A stretch of 64,000 nt of DNA from Myxococcaceae bacterium JPH2 (GTDB lineage Bacteria; Myxococcota; Myxococcia; Myxococcales; Myxococcaceae): positions 310,001-374,000 of the forward strand of contig JAEMGR010000009.1 in assembly GCA_016458225.1 (NCBI GenBank). The letters run 5' to 3'. Under the pieces are notes generated by a model that saw only the letters and a list, made by a program, of their open reading frames with translations, had not been told where the DNA came from and ran no database searches. Below, piece by piece: positions 36,212 to 55,320 of this stretch; position 1 is the stretch's first letter; every line of letters begins with the position of its first letter. Position numbers and translations under genes: made by a program.

Positions 36212-36212
36212 G

Positions 36213-37130: not shown

Positions 37131-37460
37131 GAGCCCCCCTACGCTAACACTCCCGCGTGGGCCGCACCCGATTCGCGTGAGGACGAAGTTCAGCCCTCTC
37201 CACCTTCCGACAGGCCCATGCTCGGAGGAGGAGGAAGCAAGGGGCCACCGCCCCTCGCAACACGCACGGAGCCTTCACAGGAGGCGCCTGCTTCGCGTCG
37301 CGATGGAGTGCAGCCAGCGCCACCGTTGACCAGGTCTGTACCGAGCCGGAGCGACTGAGACCCTCCCGACGCCAACGCGCCGCGAGCAAGGCCTACGCGC
37401 CACGAGGACACGACGTTCAGTGGTCACTGCGCTCGTGAGCGGAGTTGGATCCGCGTGCGC

Positions 37461-37680
37461 GAGGTTGAGCCCTCACTGGCCTCCGCGGATTCTGTGCACT
37501 GCGCAAGAAGCGGGGAGGCTTCGACCTCTCCCGACATGCGCTCGTGGACTGAACAGGATCCTCGGGGGCGTGAGGTTCAGCGCTCACTGCCCTCCATGGA
37601 TCCCGTGCGCTGCGACAGAAGCGGGGAGGCTTCGACCTCCCCGACTCCCGACACGCGCTCGTGGACTCGACCGCGACCAC
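37461..37680. repeat. Two imperfect copies of a 111-bp unit
   Basis: Copy one begins GAGGTTGAGCCCTCACTGGC at 37461 and copy two GAGGTTCAGCGCTCACTGCC at 37572. Both carry the shared block AAGCGGGGAGGCTTCGACCT (37507 and 37618) and end in GCGCTCGTGGACT. They differ by point changes and a 6-bp insertion. In copy two the block forms a hairpin, GGGGAGG-CTTCGA-CCTCCCC (37623-37642). Confidence 0.85.
37623..37642 (-). terminator. Hairpin downstream of the HARE-HTH gene
   Basis: Seven-base stem with a six-base loop inside repeat copy two, 52 bases after the stop of the minus-strand HARE-HTH gene. It may act as its terminator; no T tract follows. Confidence 0.4.
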
Positions 37681-37693
37681 GAGCGCGCGAGAC

Positions 37694-39799
37694 TCAGCCC
37701 TCTCCGCCTTCCGTCGGGCCCGCGCTCGGCGAAGGCGCCGCAGCCTCCGCGGACTCCTTGCGCTCTGGCTCGGATTCCTCGGCGACCGGCGCGCTCGCGG
37801 CCTCCGCTGCCGCCGTCACGGCCGCGGCGAGAGGGCTTCCCTCGCTCGGCGTCGCGACCGCCGGCATCTCGCCAGCGGACTCGCTCGGGGCCGAGGCGAT
37901 GGACTCGCTCGTCGGCGCAGAAGTGGCTTCCGTCGATGCCGTGGTCTCTCCGGATCCAGGCGCAGCCTCTGCGGGTGCGGTGGCCTCACTTGTCGGCGCG
38001 GCGGCCTCGCCCGGAGCGCCCTCGGCGCCGCGGTTGCCACGCCCCCGGCGCCCACGACGGCGACGACGACGGCGCTTGCGCTCGGACGGAGTGCCCTCGG
38101 CGGCGCCCTCCGGCGAGCCCTCCACGCGGCCTCCCGCGACGAACGCGCTGGCGGCCTCGAGGTCCTCGTCATCGCCCTCCTCGTCGCCCTCTTCGCTGTC
38201 ATCGTCCTCGGAGGACGGCGTGAAGCCGGCTCCCGCGGGCGGCGCGGCGACCTTGGCGGGTGCCTCGCGCGGCGCCTCGGCCGAGGCCTCCCCCCCCTTG
38301 GCCTCGCCCTCACCGCCGCCCTTGGACGCCTCGCGGGCCGCCTCACGCTCTTCACGCGCGCGGCGCTTCTCGCGGCGGCGCTCCGAGCGCTCCGAGCGTT
38401 CGGAACGCTCCGTCGACTCGGCGGGCGTGGCCTCGGCGGTCTCGCCCTCCGCGCCTTCCTCGCGCGCCTGCTTCTCGTGCTTGCGCTCTTCGCGGCGGCG
38501 CTGCGCCTCGTCGGCATCGACCTTGGCGGTCTCGAAGAATCGATCGTCGATGTCGTACAGCTCCACCTGCGTGACGGTGACGGCCGTCTTCGCCTCGAGG
38601 AACTTCTCCCCGAGCGCATCGCCGCACCAGAGCATCACCAGCGCGCCGCTGGCCTGCGCCTCGGAGCGCGCGTCGCCGCGCACGTCCCCCGCGCTGACCA
38701 GCAGGCCGACCTGCGCCGAGTAGTGGCCCAGGTCGCGCCGCAGCTCCTGCACCGTCTTGCGATCGATGGCCGGCGTGCCCTTCAGCATGCGCACCGCGTA
38801 GCGCAGCTCCACGCTGCCCTCGCGCTTGCGAGCCGTGAGCAAGGGGCCTTCCTTCGAGCGCTTGGCGACCTTCAGCTCGCGGAAGCCCAGCCCGTGCATC
38901 ATCTTCACCACGGACTTCTCGAAGGTACCGACCTCGAGGTCGCCCAGGCGCTTGCGCAGCGCCCGAGCCACCGCGCGCCGCGCGTCCTTGAGCGCCGTGC
39001 GCACCGTGGTGATGAGCGCGGCATCCACCGCCGCCTCGCCCGTGGCCGCAGCCGACGGCTTGCTCAGCACCGGACGGCCACCCTCGAGCGGAATCCCGAG
39101 CGCCTGCGCAAACGCGGCCTGGAGCTCCAGGGGCGGCGCCTCGCTGGGCATGCCCGCGCGCTCCAACGTCACCTCGCCCGTCTCCTTGTTCAGCGAGTAC
39201 TGGGGCCGGCGACCCGCATCGATGCGGCGCTGGTTGTCCTCCAGCAGGGCGGTGAGCACCGCCTCCACCGTGGTCTCCTCCGCACACAGCTCCTTGCCGC
39301 GAGCCCGCTCGATGATCTGATCCGTGCGCAGCGCGACCTCGGCCTCGCTGAGGATCTCGAACACCACCTCGGGCAGCGGCGGGAAGCGCTTGCGACGTCC
39401 ACCCCGCTCCTCTTCCTCGTCGCGGCGACGCTTGCGCTCGCTGCCACGCCCCGCCACTCGCACGTTGTCCGTGCGCGGCTCGGGGTGTCGTTCCACCGGA
39501 CGCAGCGGCGGGAGATCTTCCTCCACGTGCGGCTCAAGCACTCCGGTCTGCGCCAGCGCCTCGGCATCCTCTGGGAGCGACCAATCCGTCAGCGCGAAGG
39601 TGTCCTTCGCCGTGACAATGACCTTGCGATCCCGCGTGCGGCGCGCCATGGCAGCGAGGCGCGACAGCATCGTCACCTCGGGCGTCTTGCCGACGTGGGA
39701 CAGCAGGTTCTGCTGGATGGATTTCTCCGTGATTTCGAGGAAATGCAGGGGGCGCCCTTCGCTCTCCAGGACGCGGAGCGCGGCCTCGTAAAATGTCAT
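37694..39799 (-). CDS. HARE-HTH / Mrr-like domain protein with acidic and Arg-rich tail
   Basis: A 701-residue protein. Residues 1-65 match the HARE-HTH fold (TFYEAALRVLESEGRPLHFLE, KTPEVTMLSRLAAMARR), found in RNA polymerase delta, ASXL and restriction enzymes. A basic and acidic linker precedes a second HARE-like unit near 140-210. Residues 300-415 resemble the Mrr restriction fold (MHGLGFRELKVAKRSKEG, VQELRRDLGHYSAQVGLLVS), but the catalytic D...QxK residues are not seen. From 430 the chain is low complexity: Glu/Arg-rich, an RRRRRRRGRRGRGNRG nucleic-acid-binding-like run, then Ala/Ser/Glu repeats. A DNA or RNA binding role is inferred; nuclease activity is doubtful. It is divergent from the beta-propeller gene. 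Confidence 0.75.
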   Translation of the reverse strand: MTFYEAALRVLESEGRPLHFLEITEKSIQQNLLSHVGKTPEVTMLSRLAAMARRTRDRKVIVTAKDTFALTDWSLPEDAEALAQTGVLEPHVEEDLPPLRPVERHPEPRTDNVRVAGRGSERKRRRDEEEERGGRRKRFPPLPEVVFEILSEAEVALRTDQIIERARGKELCAEETTVEAVLTALLEDNQRRIDAGRRPQYSLNKETGEVTLERAGMPSEAPPLELQAAFAQALGIPLEGGRPVLSKPSAAATGEAAVDAALITTVRTALKDARRAVARALRKRLGDLEVGTFEKSVVKMMHGLGFRELKVAKRSKEGPLLTARKREGSVELRYAVRMLKGTPAIDRKTVQELRRDLGHYSAQVGLLVSAGDVRGDARSEAQASGALVMLWCGDALGEKFLEAKTAVTVTQVELYDIDDRFFETAKVDADEAQRRREERKHEKQAREEGAEGETAEATPAESTERSERSERSERRREKRRAREEREAAREASKGGGEGEAKGGEASAEAPREAPAKVAAPPAGAGFTPSSEDDDSEEGDEEGDDEDLEAASAFVAGGRVEGSPEGAAEGTPSERKRRRRRRRGRRGRGNRGAEGAPGEAAAPTSEATAPAEAAPGSGETTASTEATSAPTSESIASAPSESAGEMPAVATPSEGSPLAAAVTAAAEAASAPVAEESEPERKESAEAAAPSPSAGPTEGGEG

Positions 39800-39827
39800 C
39801 GAGTATTCCCCAAGAATTCCGAACGGT

Positions 39828-39869
39828 TACAAAAATGTAGGTCCGTATAGGTGGCGGATGCTAGCCACC
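39828..39869. promoter_or_regulatory. Divergent promoter region with two inverted repeats
   Basis: Between the HARE-HTH and propeller genes lies TACA-AAAA-TGTA (an unusually AT-rich palindrome for this DNA) and, further on, GGTGGC...GCCACC (39850-39855 with 39864-39869). TATAGG at 39846-39851 could be a -10 for the plus-strand gene. Either palindrome could be an operator. Pattern only. Confidence 0.35.
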
Positions 39870-39897
39870 GCTAAACTGGCTTGTCAACGAACGTAAG

Positions 39898-42090
39898 ATG
39901 ACCCGCATACGCATCGGACAGCGCTGGAAGCGCGAACCCTCAGCCCCCCCGTTGGATTCCATCGCCCTGGAACTCGACGGGGTGAACCTGCTTTCCGGAG
40001 CAGTGGAGGAGCCCTTGGCAGAGGTCGTCCCCGCCCTGGCGGAGGCCGTCGCGGCGCTCCACGGTGGGACTCGGAGGCTGGCCCAGGTCTCACTCCCAGA
40101 GGCACACCTGGAGCTGGTGCTGCGCCGGGTGGGAACGGAAATCGAGCTGTCGGTGGCCAGCCTCGCCCGACCGGCCCGGCTGCTGCGGCCCCCGGTTCGC
40201 GTGGAAACGGAGGAGCTGGCGAGCGCGGTGCGGATGGCCAGCCAGCGCTTCCTGGCGGACGTGTCGGTGGTCGCGCCCCGAGCCCTGGCGCCGGCCGTGG
40301 CCCGCAAGCTCGCTGACTCCCTCAAGCAGCTGGGCAAGGCCTCGCCTGCTCCGTCGGAGGGCGCGTCCCGGCCCGAGCCTCGCCGCGTGGAGCCGCCTGG
40401 GGCGCCCGGATTCGGCTTCGAGCTGCGTGAGCCTCCCCTCCCCGCCACCCGTGCCACACGAGGCCCTCACGGCGCGCTGGCGCCCCTCCTGGGCCCTGGC
40501 GAAGTGTGGCTGGCGGTTCCGGGACGCCCCCAGGCCTGGCGCGCCCAGGGACCGCCGTTCCTCACGGTCCTGGAGCTGTCCCGGCAGGCGGCCGAGCTGG
40601 CAAGGGCGGTGGAGCTGGGCGAGCCTCGCCACGCGCTGGAGCTGGGCGGCTCGCGGCCCGCGCTCTCGCTCGACCTCCGGGGCGGAAAGGCCCGGCTTGG
40701 GCCCACGGGCGCGCCCTTCGCGCTGGACGCCCGCGAGCTGGTGGCGGCCATGTTCCATCTGGGCGAGGCGCTCGTGCTCGCGTTCGCCGAGGAGGACCGG
40801 GCGCAGGTGAACAACCCGTACCTCGTGGAGTTGGCCGAGCGGTGTCGCGAAGGCCTGTCCCACTTGAGGGACCCGGCGAAGCCTCCCGAGTCGGAGGGGG
40901 CCGCGCGCGAGCCTCGCAGCGCCCCAGGCCGAGGTGAGTCCAAGCCCCTCAAGGTCCCTGGACGCCTGCGGCGCCTGCGGTTCGAGAAGCTGTGGGAGCA
41001 GCGCGGACTGGAGGACGCGGAGGAGGCCCGCTTGTTGTCGGGTCGCCATGGCCCCGTCTATTGCGCGCCCCGACTGGCCTGCGCGTTCTCCCGCCGGGAT
41101 GGCGCGCTGCTGTGGCGGCGGGCCGCGTCCCTGGGCGTGGCGGCCGCGGCGGACGGGCACGCGGTGGCGGCGGACACGGCGCGCGTCTATGGCTTCACGG
41201 GCCGAGGCGCCGGCGCGCGCTGGCTGCACGACCATGACGGCATCCCGCTCGGCCCCCTCCTGCTGCGCAAGGATCGGCTGCTGCTGACGCTGTCCGAGGA
41301 GCGCACGGTGGTGGCCTTCGCCGAGGCCACCGGGCGCGAGATGTGGCGACTGGCCCCTCCGCGCGCGCAGCGCAGCTGGCTCACGCCGCAGGGGCACCGG
41401 GCGCTGCTCGCCACCGACTCAGGCTATCTCTACGGCCTCGATCTCGCGGACGGTCAGGTGCGCTACCGGCTGCGCGCGCCCCTCCCCTTCCACGGTGCAC
41501 CGGTGCCCTGGGGACGGCGGGCGCTGGCCATGCTCGGACGTGGCTCACACTGGGCGGTGCTGCTCGCGGACGCGCACACGGGCCAGGCGGTGTGGACCCA
41601 CGAGCTGGACCTCACCCATCCCTCGCCGCCGCTGCCGCTCGGGGCTCGCGTGTACCTGGCGGGAGAGCGGGACCGGGAGGGGCTGCTGGTGTGCCTGGAC
41701 GCTCGCGGCAAGAAGCTCTGGGAGCGCGCGCTGCACCTGGGGCCAGGGCCCTTCGCGCTGGCTCCGCTCCAACGCGCCGTCATCGTGACGAGCGCCTCGG
41801 GCGCGGCCGCTCGCGTGACGGCCTCTGGACAGGTGGACTGGCGCGTAGGCGCCACCGGCGAGCCCCTGCTCGCGGCCCTCCCTGCTCGAACGGCGCGGGG
41901 CGTGACCCTGCTTCCGGGGGAGCACGTGCGCGCGGTGGAGCCACGCGGTGGACAGGTGCTCGCGGAGGTCCGCGCGGGCGAGGGGCTCGTCGCGCTCCAG
42001 GCCGACGTGCACCTCAACCTCTACTTCCTCGACGAGGCTGGCACGCTGTCCGCGTACCAGCTCGGGTCGCACTTCACCGTCGTGGAGTGA
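39898..42090 (+). CDS. PQQ-type beta-propeller protein with novel N-terminal domain
   Basis: A 730-residue protein without a signal peptide. Residues 1-340 are not recognised: an Arg/Ala-rich, mostly helical domain with two similar halves (ALELDGVNLLSGAVEEPLAE and LSLDLRGGKARLGPTGAPFA). Residues 360-730 form PQQ-like blades: GPVYCAPRLACAFSRRDGALLWRR, LYGLDLADGQVRYRL, VWTHELDLTHPSPPLPLGARV and GKKLWERALHLG, i.e. the Trp-containing repeats of the BamB/quinoprotein type. No catalytic PQQ ligands are evident, so a scaffold role is more likely. The lack of an export signal is unusual for the family. Divergent from the HARE-HTH gene. Confidence 0.7.
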   Translation: MTRIRIGQRWKREPSAPPLDSIALELDGVNLLSGAVEEPLAEVVPALAEAVAALHGGTRRLAQVSLPEAHLELVLRRVGTEIELSVASLARPARLLRPPVRVETEELASAVRMASQRFLADVSVVAPRALAPAVARKLADSLKQLGKASPAPSEGASRPEPRRVEPPGAPGFGFELREPPLPATRATRGPHGALAPLLGPGEVWLAVPGRPQAWRAQGPPFLTVLELSRQAAELARAVELGEPRHALELGGSRPALSLDLRGGKARLGPTGAPFALDARELVAAMFHLGEALVLAFAEEDRAQVNNPYLVELAERCREGLSHLRDPAKPPESEGAAREPRSAPGRGESKPLKVPGRLRRLRFEKLWEQRGLEDAEEARLLSGRHGPVYCAPRLACAFSRRDGALLWRRAASLGVAAAADGHAVAADTARVYGFTGRGAGARWLHDHDGIPLGPLLLRKDRLLLTLSEERTVVAFAEATGREMWRLAPPRAQRSWLTPQGHRALLATDSGYLYGLDLADGQVRYRLRAPLPFHGAPVPWGRRALAMLGRGSHWAVLLADAHTGQAVWTHELDLTHPSPPLPLGARVYLAGERDREGLLVCLDARGKKLWERALHLGPGPFALAPLQRAVIVTSASGAAARVTASGQVDWRVGATGEPLLAALPARTARGVTLLPGEHVRAVEPRGGQVLAEVRAGEGLVALQADVHLNLYFLDEAGTLSAYQLGSHFTVVE

Positions 42091-42097
42091 GTCGCAC

Positions 42098-43024
42098 TCA
42101 GTTCTGCTTGGCCGCCTTGGCCGGGTCGATCTCCTCCTCGGGGCGCTCCTCCTGGGTGGCGCCCTCCCACTTCTCGCCCGCGCCGAGCTTCCAGTCGGAC
42201 GGCACATCCAGCTTCCACACGTAGCTGGCGGCCGCGTCGCCGCCCGTGGAGGCGTGCGACGAGACGTGGATGGTCATCTCGATCTTCGCCACCTCGGCCG
42301 GCATCAGGTCCAGGTCGTAGTGGCCCAGGAGCATCTGCGGCGGGAACTCGGCGATGAAGCGCTCGGGGTAGTCGATCTTCATCGAGGGATCCGCGCCGCG
42401 CATCTCCCCCAGCAACTTGCCCTTCGCGTCGGTGAGCTTCCAGACCGTGTCGAAGGAGGCGCTGGTGACCATCTTCTTCACCTTGCCCTCGTCCTTCACC
42501 GAGCGCTGCGCACCCCAGAGCGCCAGCTGGAGCCGGATCTGCGGCTTGCCCAGCACCATCACCACATCCGAGCTGACGACATCCAGGCGCATGCCCCGGT
42601 CCGTCGCGGTCCACACCGGCTGGTAGCGGCCCTCGCGCAGCAGGTCGAACACCTTGCGCGTGTAGTCGTAGAACGCCTTGCGGTCCCCCGCGCGGTCGTC
42701 CTTCTTCTCCTTGCCGCCCTCGGCGGAGCGCTTCTCCAGCTCCGCCAGGTACGCGTCGAACTGCTTGTTGCCGCCGTAGCGCGTGAGGTGCTCGTCCACC
42801 TGCTCGAAGTAGGCCTTGAAGAAGGGCTTCACCTCCTCGCGGTACTTGGCTTCATCCGGGTTGGCGCGCATCCAGCCCACCCGCTCCAGGTACTCCGTCT
42901 GGATGCGCTGGAAGTCCGCATCCCGCTGCGCCTCCTTCGCCTTGGCGCTCGCGCTCCGGTACGACATCACGGCCGCGAGCAGCACTCCTGCGACGAGAAC
43001 GAGAACTCCGAAGTAGCGCTTCAA
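42098..43024 (-). CDS. Membrane-anchored protein of unknown function
   Basis: A 308-residue protein with one N-terminal hydrophobic segment (KRYFGVLVLVAGVLLAAVMS). A charged helical stretch to about 110 (KAKEAQRDADFQRIQTEYLE, EKKDDRAGDRK) follows, and then a beta-rich domain (RGMRLDVVSSDVVMVLGKPQ, LGHYDLDLMPAEVAKIEMT). An acidic tail ends the chain (EERPEEEIDPAK). I do not recognise the family. The start is TTG at 43024: AGGAG lies eight bases before it, and the signal anchor begins immediately. It is convergent with the propeller gene (7 bases) and divergent from the hydrolase gene. Confidence 0.7.
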   Translation of the reverse strand: MKRYFGVLVLVAGVLLAAVMSYRSASAKAKEAQRDADFQRIQTEYLERVGWMRANPDEAKYREEVKPFFKAYFEQVDEHLTRYGGNKQFDAYLAELEKRSAEGGKEKKDDRAGDRKAFYDYTRKVFDLLREGRYQPVWTATDRGMRLDVVSSDVVMVLGKPQIRLQLALWGAQRSVKDEGKVKKMVTSASFDTVWKLTDAKGKLLGEMRGADPSMKIDYPERFIAEFPPQMLLGHYDLDLMPAEVAKIEMTIHVSSHASTGGDAAASYVWKLDVPSDWKLGAGEKWEGATQEERPEEEIDPAKAAKQN

Positions 43025-43075
43025 GCGGCAGTCTCCTATGCGTTCGGGCGGGCAGTGATATGAGATTCCATCACT

Positions 43076-44107
43076 GTGATCCAGGTCGGGGGAACACACC
43101 TGTTGTCCGTGCCGCTCCCCTTGGAAGAGGGAGAGCTGCTCGGCAATCCCCAAGTGGCGTGGGAAGCCCATGGAGAACCGTCGGACGGCAAAGCGGTGGT
43201 GTTGCTGCACGACCTCTCGCATTCGCACCAGGCGCTAGGCCCCGTGGAGGCCGGCGCGTACCAGGCCTCGGGCTGGGCGCGGGAGTTCATTGGACCGGGC
43301 AAGGTGCTGGATCCGGCCGAGACGCCGCTGCTCGTGCTCAACCTGCTCGGGAGCCCCTTCGGCTCGACGTCGCCCGTGACGGTGGATGGCGCGACGGGCG
43401 AGCGACTGGGGCCCGCGATGCCGGGGCTCACGGTGCTGGACATGGCGCGAGCGGTGTCAGCGGGGCTGCGTGCGCACGGGCTCCAGCACGTTCGCGCGCT
43501 CGTGGGCGTGGGGTTGGGCGGGATGGTGGCGCTGCGGCTCGCGGCCCTGTTCCCTGAGCTTGCGGGCGCCGTCGTCGCCATTGGCGCGGGCCGCTCCCTG
43601 CCCGAGGGCCTGCGCGAGAAGCTGGGCCTCACGGCGCAAGTGTTGCGGATGGATCCCGACTTCCATGGCGGCTGGTACGAGCCGGGGAATGGGCCGCGCA
43701 AGACGATGCGCAAGCTGCGCCTGGACTTCCTCAAGCTCGTCCATGGACGTGATTCCCTGCGCCAGCGCCATCCGGAGCGAGACTCGGCCCAAGCGGCCTT
43801 GGAGGCGGAGGCGGAGTCCTTCGCGGAGACGTTCGATCCGCTGGCCTGGGCGCTGCTGTGCTCGGCCTATGCGGGGTGCGATCTCGCGGACTGCCTGCCG
43901 CGCATCCGCTCACGCGTGCTGCTGCTGGCGGCCGCCACGGATGCGCTGGCACCCGCCGCCCGAGTCCGAGACACGTACCACCTGCTGAGCGCCGCGGGCG
44001 CACCCGCGCGCTTCCACGAACTGCAGGATGTAGCGGATCACGGCACGCTGCTGGCGGACCCTCGGCCACTGCGAGGGCCCCTCCACGACTTCCTCCGGCG
44101 CCGGTGA
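43076..44107 (+). CDS. MetX-like alpha/beta hydrolase lacking the nucleophile
   Basis: A 343-residue protein of the homoserine O-acetyltransferase-like alpha/beta hydrolase group. It has the family phrase NLLGSPFGSTSP (oxyanion region, usually NVLGG..GSTGP) and GLGGMVALRLAALFPE. The nucleophile elbow reads GVGLGGM, with Gly146 where active members have Ser in GxSMGG. The His motif DVADHGTLLADP and a preceding Asp (AAATDALAPA) remain. Acyltransfer by the usual Ser mechanism is therefore unlikely. GTG at 43076 is the first start; there is no clear ribosome site. It converges on udk with one base between. Confidence 0.75.
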   Translation: MIQVGGTHLLSVPLPLEEGELLGNPQVAWEAHGEPSDGKAVVLLHDLSHSHQALGPVEAGAYQASGWAREFIGPGKVLDPAETPLLVLNLLGSPFGSTSPVTVDGATGERLGPAMPGLTVLDMARAVSAGLRAHGLQHVRALVGVGLGGMVALRLAALFPELAGAVVAIGAGRSLPEGLREKLGLTAQVLRMDPDFHGGWYEPGNGPRKTMRKLRLDFLKLVHGRDSLRQRHPERDSAQAALEAEAESFAETFDPLAWALLCSAYAGCDLADCLPRIRSRVLLLAAATDALAPAARVRDTYHLLSAAGAPARFHELQDVADHGTLLADPRPLRGPLHDFLRRR

Positions 44108-44108
44108 G

Positions 44109-44747
44109 CTAGTCGCGCTCCTGCGCCTGCGCCGCGAGCCGGGCTCGGAGCGCGCCCACCAGCATCCCGATGGCGATGTCGTTGTTGCCGCCGTGCGGGA
44201 TGATGATGTCCGCGTGGTGCTTGGACGGCTCGACGAAGCCCATGTGCATGGGGCGCACGTGGCGCAGGTACTGGGCCACCACGTGGTCGAAGTCGCGGCC
44301 GCGGTCCTTGATGTCGCGCGTGAGGCGCCGGAGGATCCGCAGGTCGTCGTCCGCGTCCACGTAGATCTTCACGTCCATCTCGTCGCGCACTTCCTTCATG
44401 TGCAGGACGAGGATGCCCTCGATGAGGATGATGTCGCCCGGATCCAACCGCTGGGTGTGCGGCTGACGCGAGGACGTGACGAAGTCGTAGACGGGCTTCT
44501 GCACCGCGCGGCCCGCCTTCAGCTCACGCAGATGACTGACGAGCAGGTCCGTGTCGAAGGCGTCGGGGTGATCGAAGTTCACCTCCCGCCGATCCGCCAG
44601 GGAGATGTCCTTGAGGTCCCGGTAGTACGAGTCCTGGTCGATGAAGGCGACCCGGCAGTCCGCGAGTGCCTCGCGGACCTTGCGGGCGACCGTCGTCTTG
44701 CCTGACGCGGTACCACCCGCGATGCCAACGACGAGAGGTGACGACAT
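44109..44747 (-). CDS. udk: Uridine kinase
   Basis: A 212-residue nucleoside kinase making UMP (and CMP) from uridine and cytidine in pyrimidine salvage. The P-loop GGTASGKT is at residues 11-18. FIDQDSYYRDL has the catalytic Asp, VNFDHPDAFDTDLL the substrate motif, and IILIEGILVL the Walker-B-like strand. The lid has RRLTRDIKDRGRD with catalytic arginines. Standard length. ATG at 44747. It stands 63 bases after the DUF692 gene on the minus strand. Confidence 0.95.
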   Translation of the reverse strand: MSSPLVVGIAGGTASGKTTVARKVREALADCRVAFIDQDSYYRDLKDISLADRREVNFDHPDAFDTDLLVSHLRELKAGRAVQKPVYDFVTSSRQPHTQRLDPGDIILIEGILVLHMKEVRDEMDVKIYVDADDDLRILRRLTRDIKDRGRDFDHVVAQYLRHVRPMHMGFVEPSKHHADIIIPHGGNNDIAIGMLVGALRARLAAQAQERD

Positions 44748-44810
44748 GGCGGCCGCACCTATCCCACCCGACGGGCTGGCGCAAGACTCCGTCGAAAATC
44801 GGACAGGTTC

Positions 44811-46460
44811 CTATCCCGGTCCCCACCGGACGAGGCCACGCGCCCGGGCCTCCGCGAGCACCGCCGGGGACAGCTCCGCTGGCGCCTTGGGGGACTCGGC
44901 CAACGCGCGCAGAAGGGCCACCAGCTCCGAGGAGACCGGCACGATTTCGTGACGTCGCCCATGACGGTGGATGGCGAAGTGCCAGGGCCCCGGACCGGGC
45001 CGAGCCGCCACCTGCTGGAGTCCCTCCAAGCCTGAGAGTTCCACCTCTCCGCCGGCCCACGCACGCCCGGTGAGGTGGCGTCGCAAGGCCCGCGCGGCAA
45101 AGACGCACTCCGTCAGGTCTACCGGGAAGGCCCCCAACCGCACCTCCTCGGCGAGTCCCACCTGTCCGGGCCCTGGCGTCGAAGCGGGCCACAGGAAGGC
45201 ATTGGGCAGGAGCGTCTCCAGGGCGACCACGGAGGCAAGCGCCTCACCGGGGGCCTGGAGCAAATGGCGCCGCGCCCACGACGCGAACACCTGCCCCAGT
45301 GAGCGCCCCAGGCCATCGAACATCGAGCGGTACTCGCGCGAGGACGTGAAGCCTCGGAGCGCCTCGGGCGTCGGCGCGAGCAGAAGCCGCGTGAGGGGCC
45401 ACGTCTGGTCGAGCTGCTCGGCCACCACCGCCAGGCGGAAGTCGCGGTCCGCGCGAACGCCCTCGGCGTCCTCGGATGCCTCCACGGGAGTGACGCCGTG
45501 GCCCGCGTCGAACAGCTCCCACGGCTTGCTCTCGCCCGTGAGCACGGGCACCGGCGCGCGCACCGCGGGCCAGGAGAGCGGCTCACGGGCACCCGCGGGG
45601 ACCATGCGCCTCAGCCGGCGAAGCTCCAAGAGCGCCACTTCGGGAGGATGGCCATCGCCCTCGAAGGTCACCGCGCGCAGACGCGAGCAGCGCGGCAGGA
45701 GGGTCTCCAGGAGTTGGAACAGCTCCTCGCGCACGGGCTGGGTGTGATCATCCACGTAGAACCGGCGCGAACCGCGACGCGTCACCACGCCGCCCGCGAT
45801 GTGGATCTCCACGACCTTGTCCAACGGGAACCCATCCAGCCCAGCGTCCAGCGGCAGCCCCGCGGAGAGCTGGTGGCTCAGCAGGTGCCCCAGGTCGAGC
45901 AGCAGCGGCAGCCCCGTGCGCGCATGGAGCTTCGCCATGAAGTCCAGCACGTGCCAGCTCCCGCGCCGCGCGAGCACCGCTGGATTCTCCAGCACGAGGG
46001 GCACGTCGAGATGCGACTGCACGTGGAGCGCATGGGCCGCGCAATCACGCAGCCCTTCCTCGGTGAACGGCGGAGTGAAGTAGAGGTAGCCCGGGAAGGG
46101 CTCGCCTTCCTCGTGCCACCAGCCCACGTCGTTGCCCACCCAGGGACTCTTCACGGCGCGGGCATGCTCGGCCAGCGCGGTCAGCGCCGAGGTAGGCTCG
46201 AGGCTCGGCCCCCACAGGTTGAGGTGGACCGGATGGAAGAGGACGGGCACGTCCGACAGCCGCCGCCACATCTCGGGGAAGAGCGTGGCCTGCGCGCGGG
46301 CCTCCTCCAGGGAGAGCGGCGCGCTGTACTCCACGAAGTCGAACAGGCCGGGCGACGCATCCCACAGCCGATAGGGCTGCGGCACGTCCGAGGCGCTCAG
46401 GTTGCTGCTCAGCCCCAGCCCAAGCCAGGGCAGCGACCAGGTGTCGGCGGCGGGTGTCAT
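44811..46460 (-). CDS. Two-domain DUF692 (MNIO) protein
   Basis: A 549-residue protein. Residues 1-285 form a DUF692 TIM barrel, the multinuclear non-haem iron oxidase family that modifies Cys, Asp or C-terminal residues of RiPP peptides. The expected metal-ligand motifs are seen: VLFHPVHLNLWG, LENPAV, LLLDLGHLL, EIHIAGG, DDHTQPV and FEGDG. Residues 300-549 are an added domain with helical pattern (AVVAEQLDQTWPLTRLLLAP) resembling the partner proteins that bind the peptide. Single-domain relatives have about 280 residues. No small Cys-rich peptide gene is evident within 200 bases on either side. The substrate may be encoded elsewhere. It is followed by udk and divergent from the VWA gene. Confidence 0.75.
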   Translation of the reverse strand: MTPAADTWSLPWLGLGLSSNLSASDVPQPYRLWDASPGLFDFVEYSAPLSLEEARAQATLFPEMWRRLSDVPVLFHPVHLNLWGPSLEPTSALTALAEHARAVKSPWVGNDVGWWHEEGEPFPGYLYFTPPFTEEGLRDCAAHALHVQSHLDVPLVLENPAVLARRGSWHVLDFMAKLHARTGLPLLLDLGHLLSHQLSAGLPLDAGLDGFPLDKVVEIHIAGGVVTRRGSRRFYVDDHTQPVREELFQLLETLLPRCSRLRAVTFEGDGHPPEVALLELRRLRRMVPAGAREPLSWPAVRAPVPVLTGESKPWELFDAGHGVTPVEASEDAEGVRADRDFRLAVVAEQLDQTWPLTRLLLAPTPEALRGFTSSREYRSMFDGLGRSLGQVFASWARRHLLQAPGEALASVVALETLLPNAFLWPASTPGPGQVGLAEEVRLGAFPVDLTECVFAARALRRHLTGRAWAGGEVELSGLEGLQQVAARPGPGPWHFAIHRHGRRHEIVPVSSELVALLRALAESPKAPAELSPAVLAEARARGLVRWGPG

Positions 46461-46621
46461 GTCCGCTCCCTATAGACCCAGCCGCTCCGGCCCGCAGCAT
46501 CTGGATGTTCTCTTCGGAACGATGACCAGCGAGCCGAACGGGCCCCCGGCGCCCCGACGGGAACCTTTCTCGCGCCGCATTGTCGAAGGACTCCGCGAAC
46601 CCAGGACAGGAGCGAGCGTCG

Positions 46622-48424
46622 ATGAAGCGAGCCGCAATGGCTGGCAGCGGTGGAGTCGTGTGCGCACTCGTCGCGGCGAGCACGCTGATGGTCCTCGCCT
46701 GCGCTCAGCGCAGTCCGCCGGAGCCCACGCCGCCCCCCGCGACAGCCGCACCCCATGAGCCCTCGAAGCTGGAGGCACTGCTCGCATCGAAACAGGCGCC
46801 TGGGCGTGTGGACATGAATCCCGTCGCCGAGCCTTCCGCGACGCCCGCCGCGCCCGTGGTCACGGAAGCAATGGTCCGGCGTGCCTTCAGCGCGGGACAT
46901 GGCGTGGGCGTGGAGGGCCGAGGCATGGGACTCGGGATGATAGGCAAAGGCGCGGGAGGCGCGGGCCTCAGCTCCGGTTCGTTCCGAGGCGGCGACATCA
47001 ATGGGGTTCTCGGGGGCAAGCCGAACCCGGACGCCCCGAGACCACGCGTCGTGACAACGGATCCACCCGACACCGCGCCTTCAAGAATCCACGGCTACGT
47101 CGAGACGACGAGCGATGCCCTGTCCACCTTCGCGGTGGACGTCGACACCGCGTCCTACACACTCGCCCGCCGACAGGTGAACGAAGGCGCCCTGCCCGCT
47201 CCGGAAACAGTCCGCGTGGAGGAGTTCCTCAACTACTTCCACTATCGCTACCCCGCACCCACCGACGATGCGCTGACGGTCCAGATGGACGCAGCGCCCT
47301 CGCCCTTCACGCCGGGCCGTCACCTGTTGCGCGTGGGCGTTCAGGGCCGCCGCTTGAGCGTGACCGAGCGGAAGCCCGCGCACCTCACGTTCCTCGTGGA
47401 CGTGTCGGGCTCCATGTCCTCACCGGATCGCCTGCCGCTGGCGAAGCGCGCGCTGCGCCTGTTGGTGGATCAGCTGCGCGACGGCGACACCGTGGCGCTC
47501 GTCACCTATGCGGGCGCCGTGCGGCTCGTGCTTCCACCGACGGGCATGGAGCACAAGGCCACCATCCACGCCGCCATCGAGGACCTGACCGCGGGGGGCT
47601 CCACCGCGATGGCCTCGGGCATCGAGCTCGCCTATCAGCAGGCGATGCGCACGCTCGACGGGCAATCGATCTCGCGTGTCATCATCCTGTCTGACGGCGA
47701 CGCCAACGTGGGCCCCACGCATCACGACGCGCTGCTGGCGCTCATCCGGGGCCACGTCAAGGAAGGCATCACGCTGACGACCGTGGGCTTTGGCCTGGGC
47801 AACTACCGGGACACGACCATGGAGCAGCTCGCGGACCGAGGGAATGGGAACCACTACTACGTGGACTCGCTCATGGCCGCGCGTCGCATCTTCCAAGAGC
47901 AGCTTGGCTCCACGCTGGAGGTCATCGCCCAGGACGTGAAGCTGCAGGTCGAGTTCGATCCCAAGCAGGTCGAGCGCTACCGGCTCGTGGGCTACGAGAA
48001 CCGAGACATCGCGGACCGTGACTTCCGCAACGACCGCGTGGACGCGGGAGAGCTGGGCGCGGGCCACACCGTCACCGCGCTGTACGAGCTGGTCCTGCGG
48101 CCGGGCGCGGGAGCGGGGCTCGCCACGGTGCGCGTGCGCGCGAAGCGACCGCGCGGAGAGACGGCGACGGAGCACGCCTATGCCTTCGAGGCCACGGCCC
48201 TGGCCCCTCGCTTCGCCAACGCGAGCCAGGACTTCCGCTTCGCCACAGCCGTCATGGGCGCGGCGGAAGTGCTGCGGCGCAGTCCCCATGCGGAGCGCTG
48301 GAGCTTGGAGGGTGTGCTGTCCATCGCGCGTGCGGCGACCCCCCCGGGAGATGTCGAGCGCGAGGAGTTCATCACCTGGATGGAGCGCACCCGTCCGCTG
48401 CTGCACGGAGTGGCCGCGCGTTGA
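46622..48424 (+). CDS. VWA-domain lipoprotein (YfbK-like)
   Basis: A 600-residue lipoprotein. The lipobox MVLAC ends the signal peptide near residue 26. Pro-rich and Gly-rich stretches run to about 155. A Von_Willebrand N-terminal region has the motif TFAVDVDTASYTLARRQVNE. The VWA domain (250-430) has a full metal site: DVSGSMS, a Thr in AGGSTAM, and ILSDGDANVG. A C-terminal DUF3520-like domain follows (ELVLRPGAGAGLATVRVRAK and on). YfbK-type proteins bind partners through the metal site in the envelope; their role is unknown. ATG at 46622 has AGGAG nine bases upstream. Confidence 0.85.
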   Translation: MKRAAMAGSGGVVCALVAASTLMVLACAQRSPPEPTPPPATAAPHEPSKLEALLASKQAPGRVDMNPVAEPSATPAAPVVTEAMVRRAFSAGHGVGVEGRGMGLGMIGKGAGGAGLSSGSFRGGDINGVLGGKPNPDAPRPRVVTTDPPDTAPSRIHGYVETTSDALSTFAVDVDTASYTLARRQVNEGALPAPETVRVEEFLNYFHYRYPAPTDDALTVQMDAAPSPFTPGRHLLRVGVQGRRLSVTERKPAHLTFLVDVSGSMSSPDRLPLAKRALRLLVDQLRDGDTVALVTYAGAVRLVLPPTGMEHKATIHAAIEDLTAGGSTAMASGIELAYQQAMRTLDGQSISRVIILSDGDANVGPTHHDALLALIRGHVKEGITLTTVGFGLGNYRDTTMEQLADRGNGNHYYVDSLMAARRIFQEQLGSTLEVIAQDVKLQVEFDPKQVERYRLVGYENRDIADRDFRNDRVDAGELGAGHTVTALYELVLRPGAGAGLATVRVRAKRPRGETATEHAYAFEATALAPRFANASQDFRFATAVMGAAEVLRRSPHAERWSLEGVLSIARAATPPGDVEREEFITWMERTRPLLHGVAAR

Positions 48425-48496
48425 CGGGTCGCGGTGTGGACTCCGTCTCGACACCTTGCGGACAATGACTGTTCCCTCCTGCTGGAGCGTCCGCTC

Positions 48497-49300
48497 ATGT
48501 CCGCCTCTGAGATTGACGAGTCCCACGCGCAGTTCCGCGGTGCCTGGAGATTGTTCGCGTTGAGCAGTCCCCAAGGAGAGGTGGTGGAGCGGCGTGAGGT
48601 GTTCATCGCCGCGAGCCATGTGACGTGGGCCCTGATGAACGCCGCGTTCCTGACCGCGCCGGTGGAGCGCGAGCAGGACCTGGCATGGGCCATCGAGTCC
48701 GCCGCGCGCTACTTCGCGCAGGGTCGGAATGGATGGTCCTTCGCCTTCAGCGAGGACTGGCTGTCACCCACGTTGCGCCCTCGGGCCACCTCGCTCCTTC
48801 AGGAGCATGGCCTGTCGCCGGGCATGAGCATCATGGGGATGGCCGCGGAGCGACTGCAGACCCCCGTGCGGCCCCCCCCGCCGCTGGACCTGCTGCGGGT
48901 GAAAGACACGTGGGGCTACAACGCCGTCGCCGACATCAACGCCACTTGCTACGACGTGCCGCGCGAGGTGGGGCGCGAGGCCCTCGCGTCTCCCGACCTC
49001 TACGGCCCTGCCTGCCGAGCCTTCGTCGGATGCCTGGAGGACAAGCCCGTCACGACCACGTCGGTGTTGAAGGTCAATGACATCGCCTATGTCGCGCTCG
49101 TGGCCACGCTCCCCGAGCACCGTCGCACGGGCGCCGCGGAGTCCGTCATGCGGCAGGCGCTGATGGCCGCGAGACAGGACTGGGGCATCGAGCGCGCGGT
49201 GCTGCATGCGACACCCGCCGGACGCCCCGTCTACCAGCGCATGGGCTTCCACGACGTCACCCCGTTCCAGTTGTTCTTCAGCCCCCCGCCCAGCGGGTAG
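48497..49300 (+). CDS. GNAT-family acetyltransferase
   Basis: A 267-residue protein with a GNAT fold in its second half. The acetyl-CoA motif is VALVATLPEHRRTGAAESVMRQAL (RRTGAA as the Q/RxxGxG/A loop), followed by VLHATPAGRPVYQRMGFHDV, the usual last strand. The N-terminal half (1-130) is a degenerate second GNAT-like unit. The substrate is unknown. ATG at 48497 has TGGAG eight to nine bases upstream. It lies 72 bases after the VWA gene and may be co-transcribed with it. Confidence 0.8.
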   Translation: MSASEIDESHAQFRGAWRLFALSSPQGEVVERREVFIAASHVTWALMNAAFLTAPVEREQDLAWAIESAARYFAQGRNGWSFAFSEDWLSPTLRPRATSLLQEHGLSPGMSIMGMAAERLQTPVRPPPPLDLLRVKDTWGYNAVADINATCYDVPREVGREALASPDLYGPACRAFVGCLEDKPVTTTSVLKVNDIAYVALVATLPEHRRTGAAESVMRQALMAARQDWGIERAVLHATPAGRPVYQRMGFHDVTPFQLFFSPPPSG

Positions 49301-49361
49301 ACCGCCCGGGCCTTGCACGGGCTGGACGCCGGGGCGTCCTCCGGAAACAATCCGCGGCCCC

Positions 49362-51764
49362 ATGCAGCCCCCTCGCAGGACGGACCCTTCCAGTGCCCCC
49401 TCGTCGCGTTGGGCGATGGGGCTCGCGGTGGTGGGGGGCGCTCTCGGGTTGACGTGCCTCTTCTTCTATCGCGCGGTGTTCACGCGAGACGTCTTCACCG
49501 CGCGGGACATGCTGCTCGTCTACGCCCCCGTGCGCCGCTACTGGGCCGAGCGCGTGTCGCGGGGCGAGTTCCCTGAGTGGTATCCGTTCGACGGGCTCGG
49601 GCAGTCCTTCCCGGGCATGGTGCTGTCCGGAGTGCTCCACCCATCGCAGCTCCTCGGGTTGGTGTTCTCCACGGGCGACGCCATGAAGCTCACCGTCCTG
49701 GGCTGCTTCCCGCTCGCGCTCCTTGGGACGTACCTGTTGCTGCGCGAAGCCCAGGTTCCGCGAGCAGGCGCCGGGATGGGCGCGGGAGTGTTCGCGTTCA
49801 GCGGCTACCTCGTCTGCATCACCAACAACCTGGGGTATCTGCTGGCGGGGGCCACCCTGCCCCTCGCGCTGTGGGCCGCGCTGCGATTCATCCGAGCAGG
49901 AGGCCCGGGCCGCGCGGTGCTCGCGGGGGCATTGCTCGCCAGCGTGCTGCTGGCGGGCGACACCTGGACGTACGCGCTCGCGAATGCGTTCGTGCTGCTG
50001 CTCGCGAGCCTGGGAGATGACTCCATCGCGGTCTCCGTGCGGGCGCGCCGAAGCATGATGCTCGTCCTCGTGGGCGCGCTGATCGCCGCGCCGCAGCTCC
50101 TCGCGGGGAGCGCGGTCCTCGCGGCGGGGGCACCTGGGGCCAGTTCGCTCGAAGACGCTCAGCGCTGGTCGCTCGATCCATGGCGACTCCTCGAGCTGGG
50201 GTTGGGTCCCTTCCTCGCCAATCCCGCTCAAGAGCGCGGCGTGCCCGAGGAGTTGGTGAAGGGGCTGCTGCGCACGGGAGGGTTCTCCAGCCTCTGGGTG
50301 GACTCGGTGTTCCTCGGCGTGCCCGCGCTCGTGCTCGCGCTCACGGGACTGCGGTCGCTGCCTCGGCGTGCCTGGCTCTTCGTCGCGGCGGGCATCGTGC
50401 TGCTCCTCCTCGCGATGGGTTCGGCGCTGCCGCTCTATCGGCTGCTCTACGGCGTGCTCCCGCTGTGGCGTCCGTTCCGCTACCCCGAGAAGCTGATGGT
50501 CCACGTCTCCCTCGGTGCGGCCCTCTTGGCGGGACTCGGCTGGAAGGCCGTGCTGGAGAATCCCGCGCGCGCACGTTGGGCTGCATGGGCAAGCGGAGCG
50601 ATGGCGCTCCTCGGCGCGCTCATGGCCGGCGCGGAACAGTGGGCGGGAGCATGGACCACGCTCTGCGTCCGCGCGCGCTGGCCCACCGTCGCGCCCGAGC
50701 AACTCACCCACGTCTCGAGCGCGTTCACGAACGCAGCGTGGGTGGCCTGTGCAATCGCCGGGGTCACCGCGCTGCTCGTGCGCGGCCTCGCGGAGTCGAG
50801 GGTCCATCGGCTGGCGCTCGCGCTGGTGCAAGGCGCCTCGGTCTTCGTCGCGAACGAGCCGCTCTACATCGTCGGTCCGCCCTCGCTGTTGGAGACACCT
50901 CCCGCCTTCGCGGACGTGCTGCGCGCGATTCCCGCGAAGGACGGCGCGCCCCATCACCGCGTGGCCTCGCGCGTGGATCGCCTCAACCTGCCCCGCTTCG
51001 ACGCCTTCGAGTTCCAAGACAGCGTCGCGCTGATGTCCCGCGCGTCGTTCACCCCCAACACGCCGGCGCTGTGGGAAATCGAGAGCGCGGAGAGCTATCT
51101 GCCCGCGGCGAGCGCACGCCTTCAACATCTGGAGGAGGACCTCCCCGCGAGCTTCACCGCGCTCCTGCCGGTGTACGGCGTGGGCTACAGCGTCTACGCG
51201 CCCGAGCAGTACCAGCGCCTCGCGACGAAGCCCGGTCCCGTCGTCGCCCGGGATGAAGCCTTTGGGCTCTGGTTGGTCGCGCATCCCAACGCGCTCCCCC
51301 GCGTCGCGCTCGTGCGTCCTCGCTGCGTGCTCGATGCCGACGCGGCCTTGCACCTGCTCATGGATCCGCGCTTCCCCATCACCCGCGAGGCGGCGGTCGA
51401 GTGCGGCGACGCTCCGCTGGCCCACCCAGAAGGCGCAGAGGGAACCGTCCGCATCGAGCGCTTCGAGCCCGAGCACATCGCGCTCGACGTCTCGGCCACC
51501 ACCGACGCGGTGGTGCTCGTCAACGACGCGTGGCAGCGCGGCTGGGAGGCGCGACAGGACGGAGTGCCCGTTCCCATCCTGCCGGCGAATGTCGCCGTGC
51601 GCGCGATTCCGGTCTCAGCGGGAGCCCACCACGTCGTCCTGCGCTATCGCGCACCCGGCCTGCGCGAGGGCCTCGCGGTGTCGCTCATGACGCTGATGTC
51701 CTTGCTGGTGTGGACGGGTTGGCTTCGGGTGCGCCCTCACATGCGACATCGCGTGCGCGCCTGA
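49362..51764 (+). CDS. YfhO-like large membrane protein
   Basis: An 800-residue protein with about twelve transmembrane helices over residues 15-490 and a soluble extracytoplasmic part at 500-770. A last helix lies near 775-790. After the first helix comes DVFTARDMLLVYAPVRRYWAER, with the acidic residues typical of the YfhO/GT-C type. A hallmark GxGQSFPGM phrase follows at about 85, and the motif LWRPFRYPEKLM marks the loop before the later helices. YfhO proteins are linked to glycosylation of wall polymers, so a lipid-linked sugar transfer is inferred. ATG at 49362. It is 61 bases after the GNAT gene. Confidence 0.8.
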   Translation: MQPPRRTDPSSAPSSRWAMGLAVVGGALGLTCLFFYRAVFTRDVFTARDMLLVYAPVRRYWAERVSRGEFPEWYPFDGLGQSFPGMVLSGVLHPSQLLGLVFSTGDAMKLTVLGCFPLALLGTYLLLREAQVPRAGAGMGAGVFAFSGYLVCITNNLGYLLAGATLPLALWAALRFIRAGGPGRAVLAGALLASVLLAGDTWTYALANAFVLLLASLGDDSIAVSVRARRSMMLVLVGALIAAPQLLAGSAVLAAGAPGASSLEDAQRWSLDPWRLLELGLGPFLANPAQERGVPEELVKGLLRTGGFSSLWVDSVFLGVPALVLALTGLRSLPRRAWLFVAAGIVLLLLAMGSALPLYRLLYGVLPLWRPFRYPEKLMVHVSLGAALLAGLGWKAVLENPARARWAAWASGAMALLGALMAGAEQWAGAWTTLCVRARWPTVAPEQLTHVSSAFTNAAWVACAIAGVTALLVRGLAESRVHRLALALVQGASVFVANEPLYIVGPPSLLETPPAFADVLRAIPAKDGAPHHRVASRVDRLNLPRFDAFEFQDSVALMSRASFTPNTPALWEIESAESYLPAASARLQHLEEDLPASFTALLPVYGVGYSVYAPEQYQRLATKPGPVVARDEAFGLWLVAHPNALPRVALVRPRCVLDADAALHLLMDPRFPITREAAVECGDAPLAHPEGAEGTVRIERFEPEHIALDVSATTDAVVLVNDAWQRGWEARQDGVPVPILPANVAVRAIPVSAGAHHVVLRYRAPGLREGLAVSLMTLMSLLVWTGWLRVRPHMRHRVRA

Positions 51765-51906
51765 GCGAACGCGATGGCGGAAACGTCCACTCGTCAACGG
51801 GATCACGGCTCACGCACTCCAGGCCACGTGAGGTGTTGGTCACCTGATGCCTAGCTTGACTTCCGCGGAGCCTCCGTTCCGCCGGATAGACCTCGGGAGC
51901 CACACC

Positions 51907-53181
51907 ATGCGCACCTCTTCCGTTCGTCACACCAGGACACGCGACGCGCTCGCACGACTGTCTTCACTCGCCCTGGGACTGTGCCTCCTGCTCGGTGCCA
52001 GCGCCGCACGCGCCGCGCCCACGCCGCTGGAGGACAACCGCCGCATCACCCGGGGCTACATCGAGCTCGCGTACGAGGTCGGCGCGGTGTTGGACCCCAC
52101 GCTGCAACCCGGTGGCAGCAGCGCGGTGCGGCCCAACTGGTACACGTTCGCGCCCCATGCGTCACAGACTGGCGGCATGGGCATGTACAGCACGGCGGTC
52201 GCCACCAAGCTGATCAACGCGCTGCGCGGCAGGCCCATCCTCACGGTGCTCGAGGCGCTCGGCCGTGTGGACCTCGATGACGTCCTGAAGGCCAGCGCCG
52301 AGCAGCGCGCCGCGGAGTTCCTCACCGCCGGCCTCCCCTTGGATGTGTCCACCATCTTCGCCGTGCTGACGTCCTCCCTCAACGCCAAGGCCCTGCTGGA
52401 TCCGCGCACGCTCGCGACGACGACCGGGCGCTTCGTGTCGCTGTACTGGACCGCCCCCGGCATCCTGCCGCTCGACAAGGCCGAGGCCGTGGTCCGCACG
52501 CTGGAGCGCGCGCTGCACGAGGGCAACCTCGCCATCTACTCGGACATTGGTGGCGCGGGGCGCGCCTACCTGGACTGGCGGGCGGGCGCGGGGGTCGTGA
52601 CGCCCGGACGCGTGCTGACGGAGTTCGTCCTTCCCGAGGCGGTGCCCGCCGAGGCTCGCGTGGCCTACGACTTCGCGCTCGCGCACGCCAACGACACGCC
52701 GCGCCCCAACCAGTTCGACGCGCTGTTCCCGGGCATGCACTGGAAGAGCCTGCTCGTCGCCGCGTTCGCCGTGTACGAGGAGTCGCGACTGGCTTCATCG
52801 CCGGCACGCCGCGATGCGCTCATCGCCATGGGCAACAACTACGTGGCGTGGCGCGAGCAGCACGACATGGCTCAGCCGGTGTTCAACCCCTCGGGCGCTC
52901 CGGACGAAGTCTCCCGCCCCGCGCTCCTTCAGGCGCTGACGCCGCTGTTGCAGACGGACTTCGGCAAGGTGCACTGGACGTACGCCGACTACGCCAACAC
53001 CCAGCCGGATCGCGACGGCAATCCCTTCACGTCGAAGCCCACGGAGTACAACTGGGCCGTGTTCCTCGACCGGTGGCACGGCATCCTGTACGCGTTCGAC
53101 CTGACGTATTCCCGACCGCGTGACGCGTGGGTCATGCCCACGCCCCTGGAGGATCCGCTGACCCCGTTCAACGGGACCTGA
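51907..53181 (+). CDS. Secreted protein of unknown function
   Basis: A 424-residue exported protein. The signal peptide is about 36 residues (LSSLALGLCLLLGASAARA). The mature part is mostly helical with a few aromatic-rich phrases (GGMGMYSTAVATKLINALRG, GRFVSLYWTAPGILPLDKAE, EYNWAVFLDRWHGILYAFDL). It contains no cysteines after the signal, and I recognise no family. GGGAGCC precedes ATG at 51907. It lies 142 bases after the YfhO gene and is likely to have its own promoter; nothing in its context suggests a role. Confidence 0.65.
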   Translation: MRTSSVRHTRTRDALARLSSLALGLCLLLGASAARAAPTPLEDNRRITRGYIELAYEVGAVLDPTLQPGGSSAVRPNWYTFAPHASQTGGMGMYSTAVATKLINALRGRPILTVLEALGRVDLDDVLKASAEQRAAEFLTAGLPLDVSTIFAVLTSSLNAKALLDPRTLATTTGRFVSLYWTAPGILPLDKAEAVVRTLERALHEGNLAIYSDIGGAGRAYLDWRAGAGVVTPGRVLTEFVLPEAVPAEARVAYDFALAHANDTPRPNQFDALFPGMHWKSLLVAAFAVYEESRLASSPARRDALIAMGNNYVAWREQHDMAQPVFNPSGAPDEVSRPALLQALTPLLQTDFGKVHWTYADYANTQPDRDGNPFTSKPTEYNWAVFLDRWHGILYAFDLTYSRPRDAWVMPTPLEDPLTPFNGT

Positions 53182-53335
53182 GCGACCCGCGCCCGGGCGG
53201 GAGGGACGGCGACGGTGCGTGCGCATGGCGCGAGGAGCCTTCTCCGCGCCACCAGCCATCCGTCCTCCCGGGCCGTCGCGGCAGATCCACGGCGGTCTGC
53301 TTGACGACATGGGGGACGTGGGAGAGCGTTCTGTC

Positions 53336-54931: not shown

Positions 54932-55047
54932 TTTGGCGCGCGGATGGAAACACGCGGCGCGCGTTGCGTGCATTCTCTCTCCACGCGTGATGAGGGGGCC
55001 GCCGCCCCGCTTCGTCCGTGTCCTGTGATTCAAGTGGGGGGTATCCG

Positions 55048-55314
55048 ATGCCGTGGCTCGAGACCATTGTCATGTCCGCGCCAAAGTCCGGTCCCGCGCG
55101 AGCGAAACCTGTCCGGGACGAGGGCCGCCAACTGCGCGACTCACTGCTGGACTACCTCACGAAGCACGAGCTGCTCGACGGTGTTCGCTGGATGAGTGAA
55201 CCCGGACAGTTGCCGCTCGTGACGATGCACTGCACGCCTCAGGCGCAGGAGCGTCTGCGCAAGGCCGGGCAGTTCACGGTGGGCACCGGCATGCCGCTGG
55301 ACCTGCACGGCTGA
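55048..55314 (+). CDS. Small protein of unknown function
   Basis: An 88-residue protein; family not recognised. A Lys/Arg-rich stretch at 9-30 precedes helix RDSLLDYLTKHELLDGVRWM and strand LPLVTMHCTPQAQERL, and it ends with a Gly-rich phrase. The ATG has GGGGGGT upstream. It is convergent with the PARG gene (6 bases). The clean ribosome site and ordered helix/strand pattern suggest a real gene. Confidence 0.55.
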   Translation: MPWLETIVMSAPKSGPARAKPVRDEGRQLRDSLLDYLTKHELLDGVRWMSEPGQLPLVTMHCTPQAQERLRKAGQFTVGTGMPLDLHG

Positions 55315-55320
55315 AGCACC

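Follow-up and report, generated by a model that had tools for sequence, protein, structure and literature searches.

The locus and its features

The window is the whole stretch of DNA analysed here, 64,000 nucleotides from Myxococcaceae bacterium JPH2, and the gene under study lies on its reverse strand. The initial annotation had read the ORF at 44811-46460 as a DUF692 (MNIO) enzyme fused to a partner-like domain of about 250 residues; its coordinates proved exact, and both halves of that reading have been borne out, the first by a Pfam match of 103.9 bits and the second by the fold that the C-terminal part shares with TglI and NGO1945. The features of the gene and of its downstream neighbour are as follows:

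44811..46460 (-): fused MNIO-partner gene, 549 aa, ATG at 46460, stop codon counted in
46466..46470 (-): GGGAG Shine-Dalgarno-like sequence, 5 nt ahead of the ATG (sequence inspection)
45591..46460 (-): MNIO (DUF692) TIM-barrel domain, residues 1-290 (PF05114, TglH match, ligand alignment)
45459..45590 (-): variable linker, residues 291-334, poorly conserved and with little structure predicted
45186..45458 (-): helical DUF2063-like partner domain, residues 335-425 (resembles TglI 8hi7_A/8hci_A and NGO1945 3dee in fold)
44814..45173 (-): RRE-like domain, residues 430-549 (matches TglI in fold, as well as the RREs of TbtB, MadB and PqqD)
44109..44747 (-): udk, uridine kinase (NCBIfam NF004018, 278 bits, cut-off 180)

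A scan for promoters and terminators found none. Compared with Citreicoccus inhibens, w (dN/dS) amounts to 0.09 for the barrel, 0.12 for the helical module and 0.16 for the RRE; the linker gave 0.47, with values there of 0.27-0.56. Purifying selection acts on the MNIO part as well as on the C-terminal part, and the fused ORF is therefore no chance read-through.

The MNIO barrel

Residues 39-277 match PF05114 far above the curated cut-off of 25 bits (E 1.2e-29), and the top sequence match among solved structures is TglH (8hci). A full-length model based on 20 aligned homologues reached a mean pLDDT of 74.6, residues 1-61 being poorly modelled. Against all seven solved MNIO entries, MbnB, TglH and HS_1138 among them, its barrel half scores Z 17.7-21.1, while the next fold follows at 13.6, and TglH is again the closest solved structure (Z 21.1). 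As judged from profile, modelled fold and nine ligand-type positions, the N-terminal part is a member of the MNIO (PF05114) superfamily. Within the superfamily, the fused protein scores below the curated cut-offs of all five NCBIfam equivalogs considered (ApyH, BufB, HvfB, ChrH and MbnB). It comes near ApyH and BufB, the best being ApyH with 94.7 bits versus a cut-off of 400. A ChrH-like identity was rejected on its lower NCBIfam score, and a sugar-isomerase identity on a structural match lower than that to TglH.

An Asp/His variant of the predicted iron ligands

Nine iron ligands are predicted, namely H76, D111 and E158; H192, D237 and H239; and D189, H220 and E267. All of them are invariant across 31 diverse homologues, which contradicts the possible loss of His/Asp/Glu ligands that the initial annotation had raised: they are kept in every member. 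This also bears on whether the protein might be a catalytically inactive or regulatory relative of MNIOs that competes for a partner, as known for the pseudo-MNIO PesX (PMC13060819). PesX, however, is devoid of iron ligands, and the fused enzyme, having a partner in its own chain, has none to compete for; such a role is extremely unlikely.

Compared with the canonical set, a site-1 His is replaced by Asp111 and a site-3 Asn by His192. The canonical myxobacterial MNIOs in the alignment (n=7) carry His at ligand position two and Asn at ligand position five, whereas Asp and His occupy these positions in the fused family and in nearly all of ten other aligned sequences, one of which (L141) also differs at two more ligand positions. 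In an unrooted tree with several long branches, the Asp/His and canonical groups fall on opposite sides of one branch with a support of 100/100. The Asp/His pair is absent from all solved MNIO structures examined. It does occur in PbsC, which catalyzes the ortho-hydroxylation of Phe and for which His97/Asp133/Glu178, His216/Asp260/His262 and Asp213/His247/Glu290 have been predicted as ligands (PMC12257519). Using this published residue list, which is itself an AlphaFold 3 prediction, both the ligand set and the tight spacings (D-3-H, D-2-H, H-28-E) of the fused enzyme were found to equal those of PbsC. Hence, the Asp/His change represents a second ligand type and no decay of the site.

By analogy with PbsC, the chemistry of the fused enzyme probably spares Cys, and the Asp/His variant offers an easily read sequence marker by which non-Cys chemistry may be told from Cys chemistry. 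Because the ligand set is of this PbsC-like type, the Cys-rich precursor that the initial annotation had in mind was probably the wrong kind to look for. PbsC and its partner PbsD, which act on biphenomycin-like peptides, nevertheless differ from the present system in being two proteins, clustered with a B12-radical-SAM enzyme, an arginase and FRF precursors. None of these three is found beside the fused gene, the neighbours of which are udk, a VWA protein and others.

The C-terminal domain as a built-in partner

No Pfam family could be assigned to the C-terminal 250 or so residues even at E 10, the PF09836 (DUF2063) signature included. Modelled alone, residues 296-549 gave a pLDDT of 81, and a Foldseek search with this model returned two matches below 1e-3, both of them TglI, with NGO1945, the founding member of the PME proteins, next. 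VIA-align likewise placed TglI first (Z 12.0 and 11.8), followed by NGO1945 (9.3) and then by entries at Z 6.0 or less, among them the RREs of TbtB, MadB and PqqD, which align with model residues 135-254. The concern that the C-terminal domain might be unrelated to partner proteins, also voiced in the initial annotation, is thus answered by a relationship in fold to TglI and NGO1945. PME-type 2 proteins have been defined by an NGO1945-like structure lacking the Pfam signature (PMC12452194). By this published definition, the modelled C-terminal domain is a PME-type 2 partner, here in fused form. The combination of an MNIO barrel with a TglI/NGO1945-like C-terminal domain therefore makes the protein a natural fusion of an MNIO with a PME-type 2 partner. 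While the fused domain shares both the NGO1945-like structure and the missing DUF2063 signature with the PME-type 2 proteins of that study, the latter were reported as stand-alone proteins whose genes follow that of the MNIO, whereas here both parts belong to the same ORF.

Profile-profile comparison by hhalign gave P 0.23 against five myxobacterial PME-type 1 proteins, colinear over 184 columns. Homology to the 183-aa partner of the canonical MNIO on contig C3 of the same genome was discarded as insignificant (P 0.58). As these comparisons fell short of significance, the partner assignment rests on the fold. Across 145 genomes, every occurrence of the C-terminal domain was joined to the barrel. 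Its RRE end (the last 40-60 residues) is missing in some deep-branching members, so leader binding may be dispensable in places.

Several known systems resemble this architecture in part. The closest solved counterpart is TglH-TglI of the pearlin pathway in Pseudomonas syringae (8hci, 8hi7), with Z 21 between barrel and TglH and Z 12 between partner domain and TglI; it differs in consisting of two proteins, in its canonical His/Asn ligands, in its precursor TglA and in its C-terminal Cys chemistry. An artificial HvfB-HvfC fusion has the same domain order in one chain and shows that such a fusion works (PMC13419390), but it is laboratory-made, has canonical ligands and targets Cys residues of oxazolin precursors. 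MovX from a methanobactin-like cluster of Vibrio combines an MNIO with a fused C-terminal winged-helix/RRE and has no separate partner; in contrast to the present enzyme, no DUF2063-like helical domain has been reported for it, and it is clustered with its precursor MovA. Enzymes of the ChrH/DybH family carry a helical extension behind the MNIO part and act independently of a partner, yet the extra domain is a different one and precursors with Cys motifs adjoin. In the published literature, built-in extra domains of MNIOs are thus those of MovX (RRE only) and ChrH/DybH (another C-terminal bundle), and the MNIO landscape paper names MNIO-nitroreductase fusions and no MNIO-PME fusion. The initial annotation had presented the fusion as a departure from the usual separate partner; the fusion itself is confirmed, whereas its novelty is qualified by the precedents MovX, ChrH and the artificial HvfB-HvfC chain. 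The papers searched contained no earlier description of the present fusion. The domain arrangement is real, conserved and so far undescribed, within a known enzyme class and in a non-cluster setting.

Neighbourhood and search for a precursor

No precursor had been seen within 200 bases of the gene in the initial annotation. This holds, and extending the search to positions 36001-56000 of the window and to 45 homologous loci uncovered no conserved candidate either. The extended region contains 16 unassigned ORFs of 20-150 aa, none of which is conserved past the nearest relative save one, an antisense ORF at 46402-46758 that encodes no Cys and matches two further genera. Across the 45 loci no short gene recurs, except for a Corallococcus-only gene three to four places off. 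A conventional RiPP enzyme with a very short or unannotated precursor ORF close by would still be conceivable from the size of such genes, given the 33-aa ORFs beside another MNIO of the same genome. Against it stand the lack of any ORF of 20-150 aa within 10 kb that is kept past the nearest relative, the Cys-free antisense ORF aside, the lack of a recurring short gene at the 45 homologues, and its lack by unfused relatives as well, so that this arrangement appears quite improbable. As no substrate gene lies nearby, the substrate of the fused enzyme is probably a peptide or protein whose gene is located elsewhere.

Uridine kinase is encoded directly downstream on the same strand in 30 of the 45 loci and can be taken as a conserved neighbour in the sense of genomic context. 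Together with prs next to unfused relatives and with the resemblance of the barrel to sugar isomerases, it might hint at an enzyme that is tied to uridine kinase, has a barrel like that of xylose isomerase and isomerises or oxygenates small (sugar- or nucleoside-related) molecules. Isomerase matches, however, reach only Z ~13, far under the Z of 21 for TglH, and a TglI-like partner with RRE is a peptide-binding device that has been kept in the fusion; this function is very unlikely.

Upstream, six loci carry a MacB-like permease gene directly adjacent on the same strand, at a distance of 3-41 bp, itself preceded by genes for a MacB ATPase, a MacA-like and a TolC-like protein. From these loci, the fused protein could be regarded as serving a MacAB-TolC export system, whose cargo it would modify. 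Yet in other genomes the exporter operon lies 11-30 kb off behind unrelated genes (about 27 kb in the genome studied here, outside the window), and genomes G002, G011 and G018, which lack the fusion, have the operon as well. This scattered distance and presence without the fusion are read as an old gene order that is decaying. MacAB-TolC was therefore rejected as a dedicated partner system, adjacency being confined to some lineages, and an exporter-coupled function is unlikely. A further neighbour is a divergent gene at 46580-48424 of the window for a VWA/YfbK-like probable lipoprotein, which adjoins the enzyme gene in its own genus and is not kept beside it in most relatives.

Distribution and unfused relatives

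The fusion was detected in 76 of 147 genomes of the class, each time as a single copy, and the wider survey of the fused family covered 195 genomes of the phylum. Carriers are nearly all Myxococcaceae, with named GTDB matches in Myxococcus, Corallococcus, Pyxidicoccus, Archangium, Hyalangium and Citreicoccus. The gene has been inherited vertically as a single copy. Matches on plasmids are unfused MNIOs alone and cover at most 45% of the query. One locus carries the GTDB title Comamonas sp. KCTC 72670 (L052); its gene order round the fused gene is that of Myxococcaceae, and the label is probably wrong.

The closest unfused relatives (L134-L138) are two-gene pairs of MNIO and partner that likewise neighbour ordinary genes; three of them (L135, L137, L138) belong to one family, f25, and L136 to another, f13. 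With names read from sequence, the pair at L134 (genome G171) appears to adjoin TDO-like and MnmC-like genes, and the f25 pairs a putative PRPP synthetase gene (prs) and/or a DUF493-like gene. No short precursor gene was found beside any of these five pairs. Since the unfused pairs also sit without a precursor, the absence of a cluster predates the fusion. Downstream of the L134 pair (L134:10080-16076) follow genes for two large Cys-rich proteins, the ends of which are MYXO-CTERM-like (SC...RRRR).

Proposed function

Work on MNIOs has dealt with them as RiPP enzymes dependent on a partner and a precursor from the same cluster. A fused, single-copy and cluster-free MNIO in most of a family suggests a role outside natural products. 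On balance, we favour a self-contained MNIO oxygenase that modifies a leader-bearing peptide or protein in trans, probably at a residue other than Cys. The proposal of the initial annotation that the enzyme may act on a distant peptide or on a protein agrees with all the evidence, while the trans substrate as such is what we infer from it.

In the proposed mechanism, the TIM barrel would hold the predicted two- or three-iron centre, and the DUF2063-like helical module would dock on the barrel within the same chain and bring the iron centre to its active state. The RRE would bind a recognition segment of the substrate, the gene of which would lie elsewhere in the genome, and O2 together with a reductant would then allow oxidation, most likely hydroxylation, of a non-Cys residue. 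Partner proteins are known to dock via their helical part and to bind leaders via the RRE, and the diiron centre reaches its active mixed-valent state only with the help of HvfC (PMC13419390). In the same study, a linker-free artificial HvfB-HvfC fusion was fully active and outperformed the co-expressed pair; the native fusion may similarly fix a 1:1 stoichiometry. As a more tentative extension, which we consider possible though rather doubtful, the Asp/His MNIOs of myxobacteria might form an ancient lineage outside clusters, passed on vertically, whose members are general protein or peptide modifiers and not tailoring enzymes of natural products; the partner would have been welded on in Myxococcaceae to give a stand-alone oxygenase that modifies a cellular protein. 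With the fused enzyme, it becomes testable whether MNIOs modify ordinary proteins, and a one-chain enzyme is a handy object for structural and spectroscopic work.

Other MNIO loci

Two canonical MNIO loci occur in the same genome. At C3:385671-386467 (-), in part also seen at L116:11602-11956, seven tandem 128-bp repeats each contain a 33-aa ORF starting MYIQSEIVRVSAAADKCTCSSGM. Downstream of the repeats come genes for an MFS protein, a methyltransferase-like protein, a canonical MNIO and a partner-like protein, and the locus is a probable RiPP cluster with a precursor array. The second locus, C7 (L117:5493-7438), comprises an 87-aa Cys-rich probable precursor, an MNIO and a DUF2063 partner, and is of the oxazolin/bufferin kind. 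As both clusters share a genome with the fusion, the fused enzyme could in principle mature one of their precursors, either the 87-aa peptide of C7 or the tandem 33-aa peptides of C3. The MNIOs of C3 and C7, however, have partners of their own. Moreover, the 33-aa repeat is present in one copy in Citreicoccus inhibens and in none of 12 other genomes; the tandem peptides were accordingly rejected as substrate, being genus-restricted among 14 genomes, whereas the fusion is family-wide. Finally, in G009, a genome 99% complete, the fusion is the sole MNIO, so the fused enzyme cannot depend on another MNIO cluster. Service to either cluster is hence decidedly improbable, and modification in trans of a substrate encoded elsewhere remains the preferred reading.

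Asp/His-type MNIOs also occur in other settings. In myxobacterium G028 (L121:293-7830), two of them flank a partner-like protein, accompanied by two B12-radical-SAM-like genes and an arginase-like gene, an arrangement that resembles a biphenomycin-like cluster. Two further apparent natural fusions of MNIO and partner were noted, judged from length and sequence alone: a 610-aa protein of Corallococcus with canonical His/Asn ligands (L142:6318-8150), and an MNIO of the Asp/His type to which a DUF2063-like part is apparently fused (L140:1-2167) and which is sister to the unfused L139 with a support of 100/99. Counting these two besides the fused family, fusion may have arisen at least three times in the phylum. 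The L140 gene is adjoined by one for a 141-aa protein with repeated CYxxPC motifs. As a general substrate this protein was dismissed, having no homologue in the genome studied here or in 12 others; it may be the substrate of L140, and in the corresponding position L139 is accompanied by a protein of 201 aa that contains a CPSCY motif.
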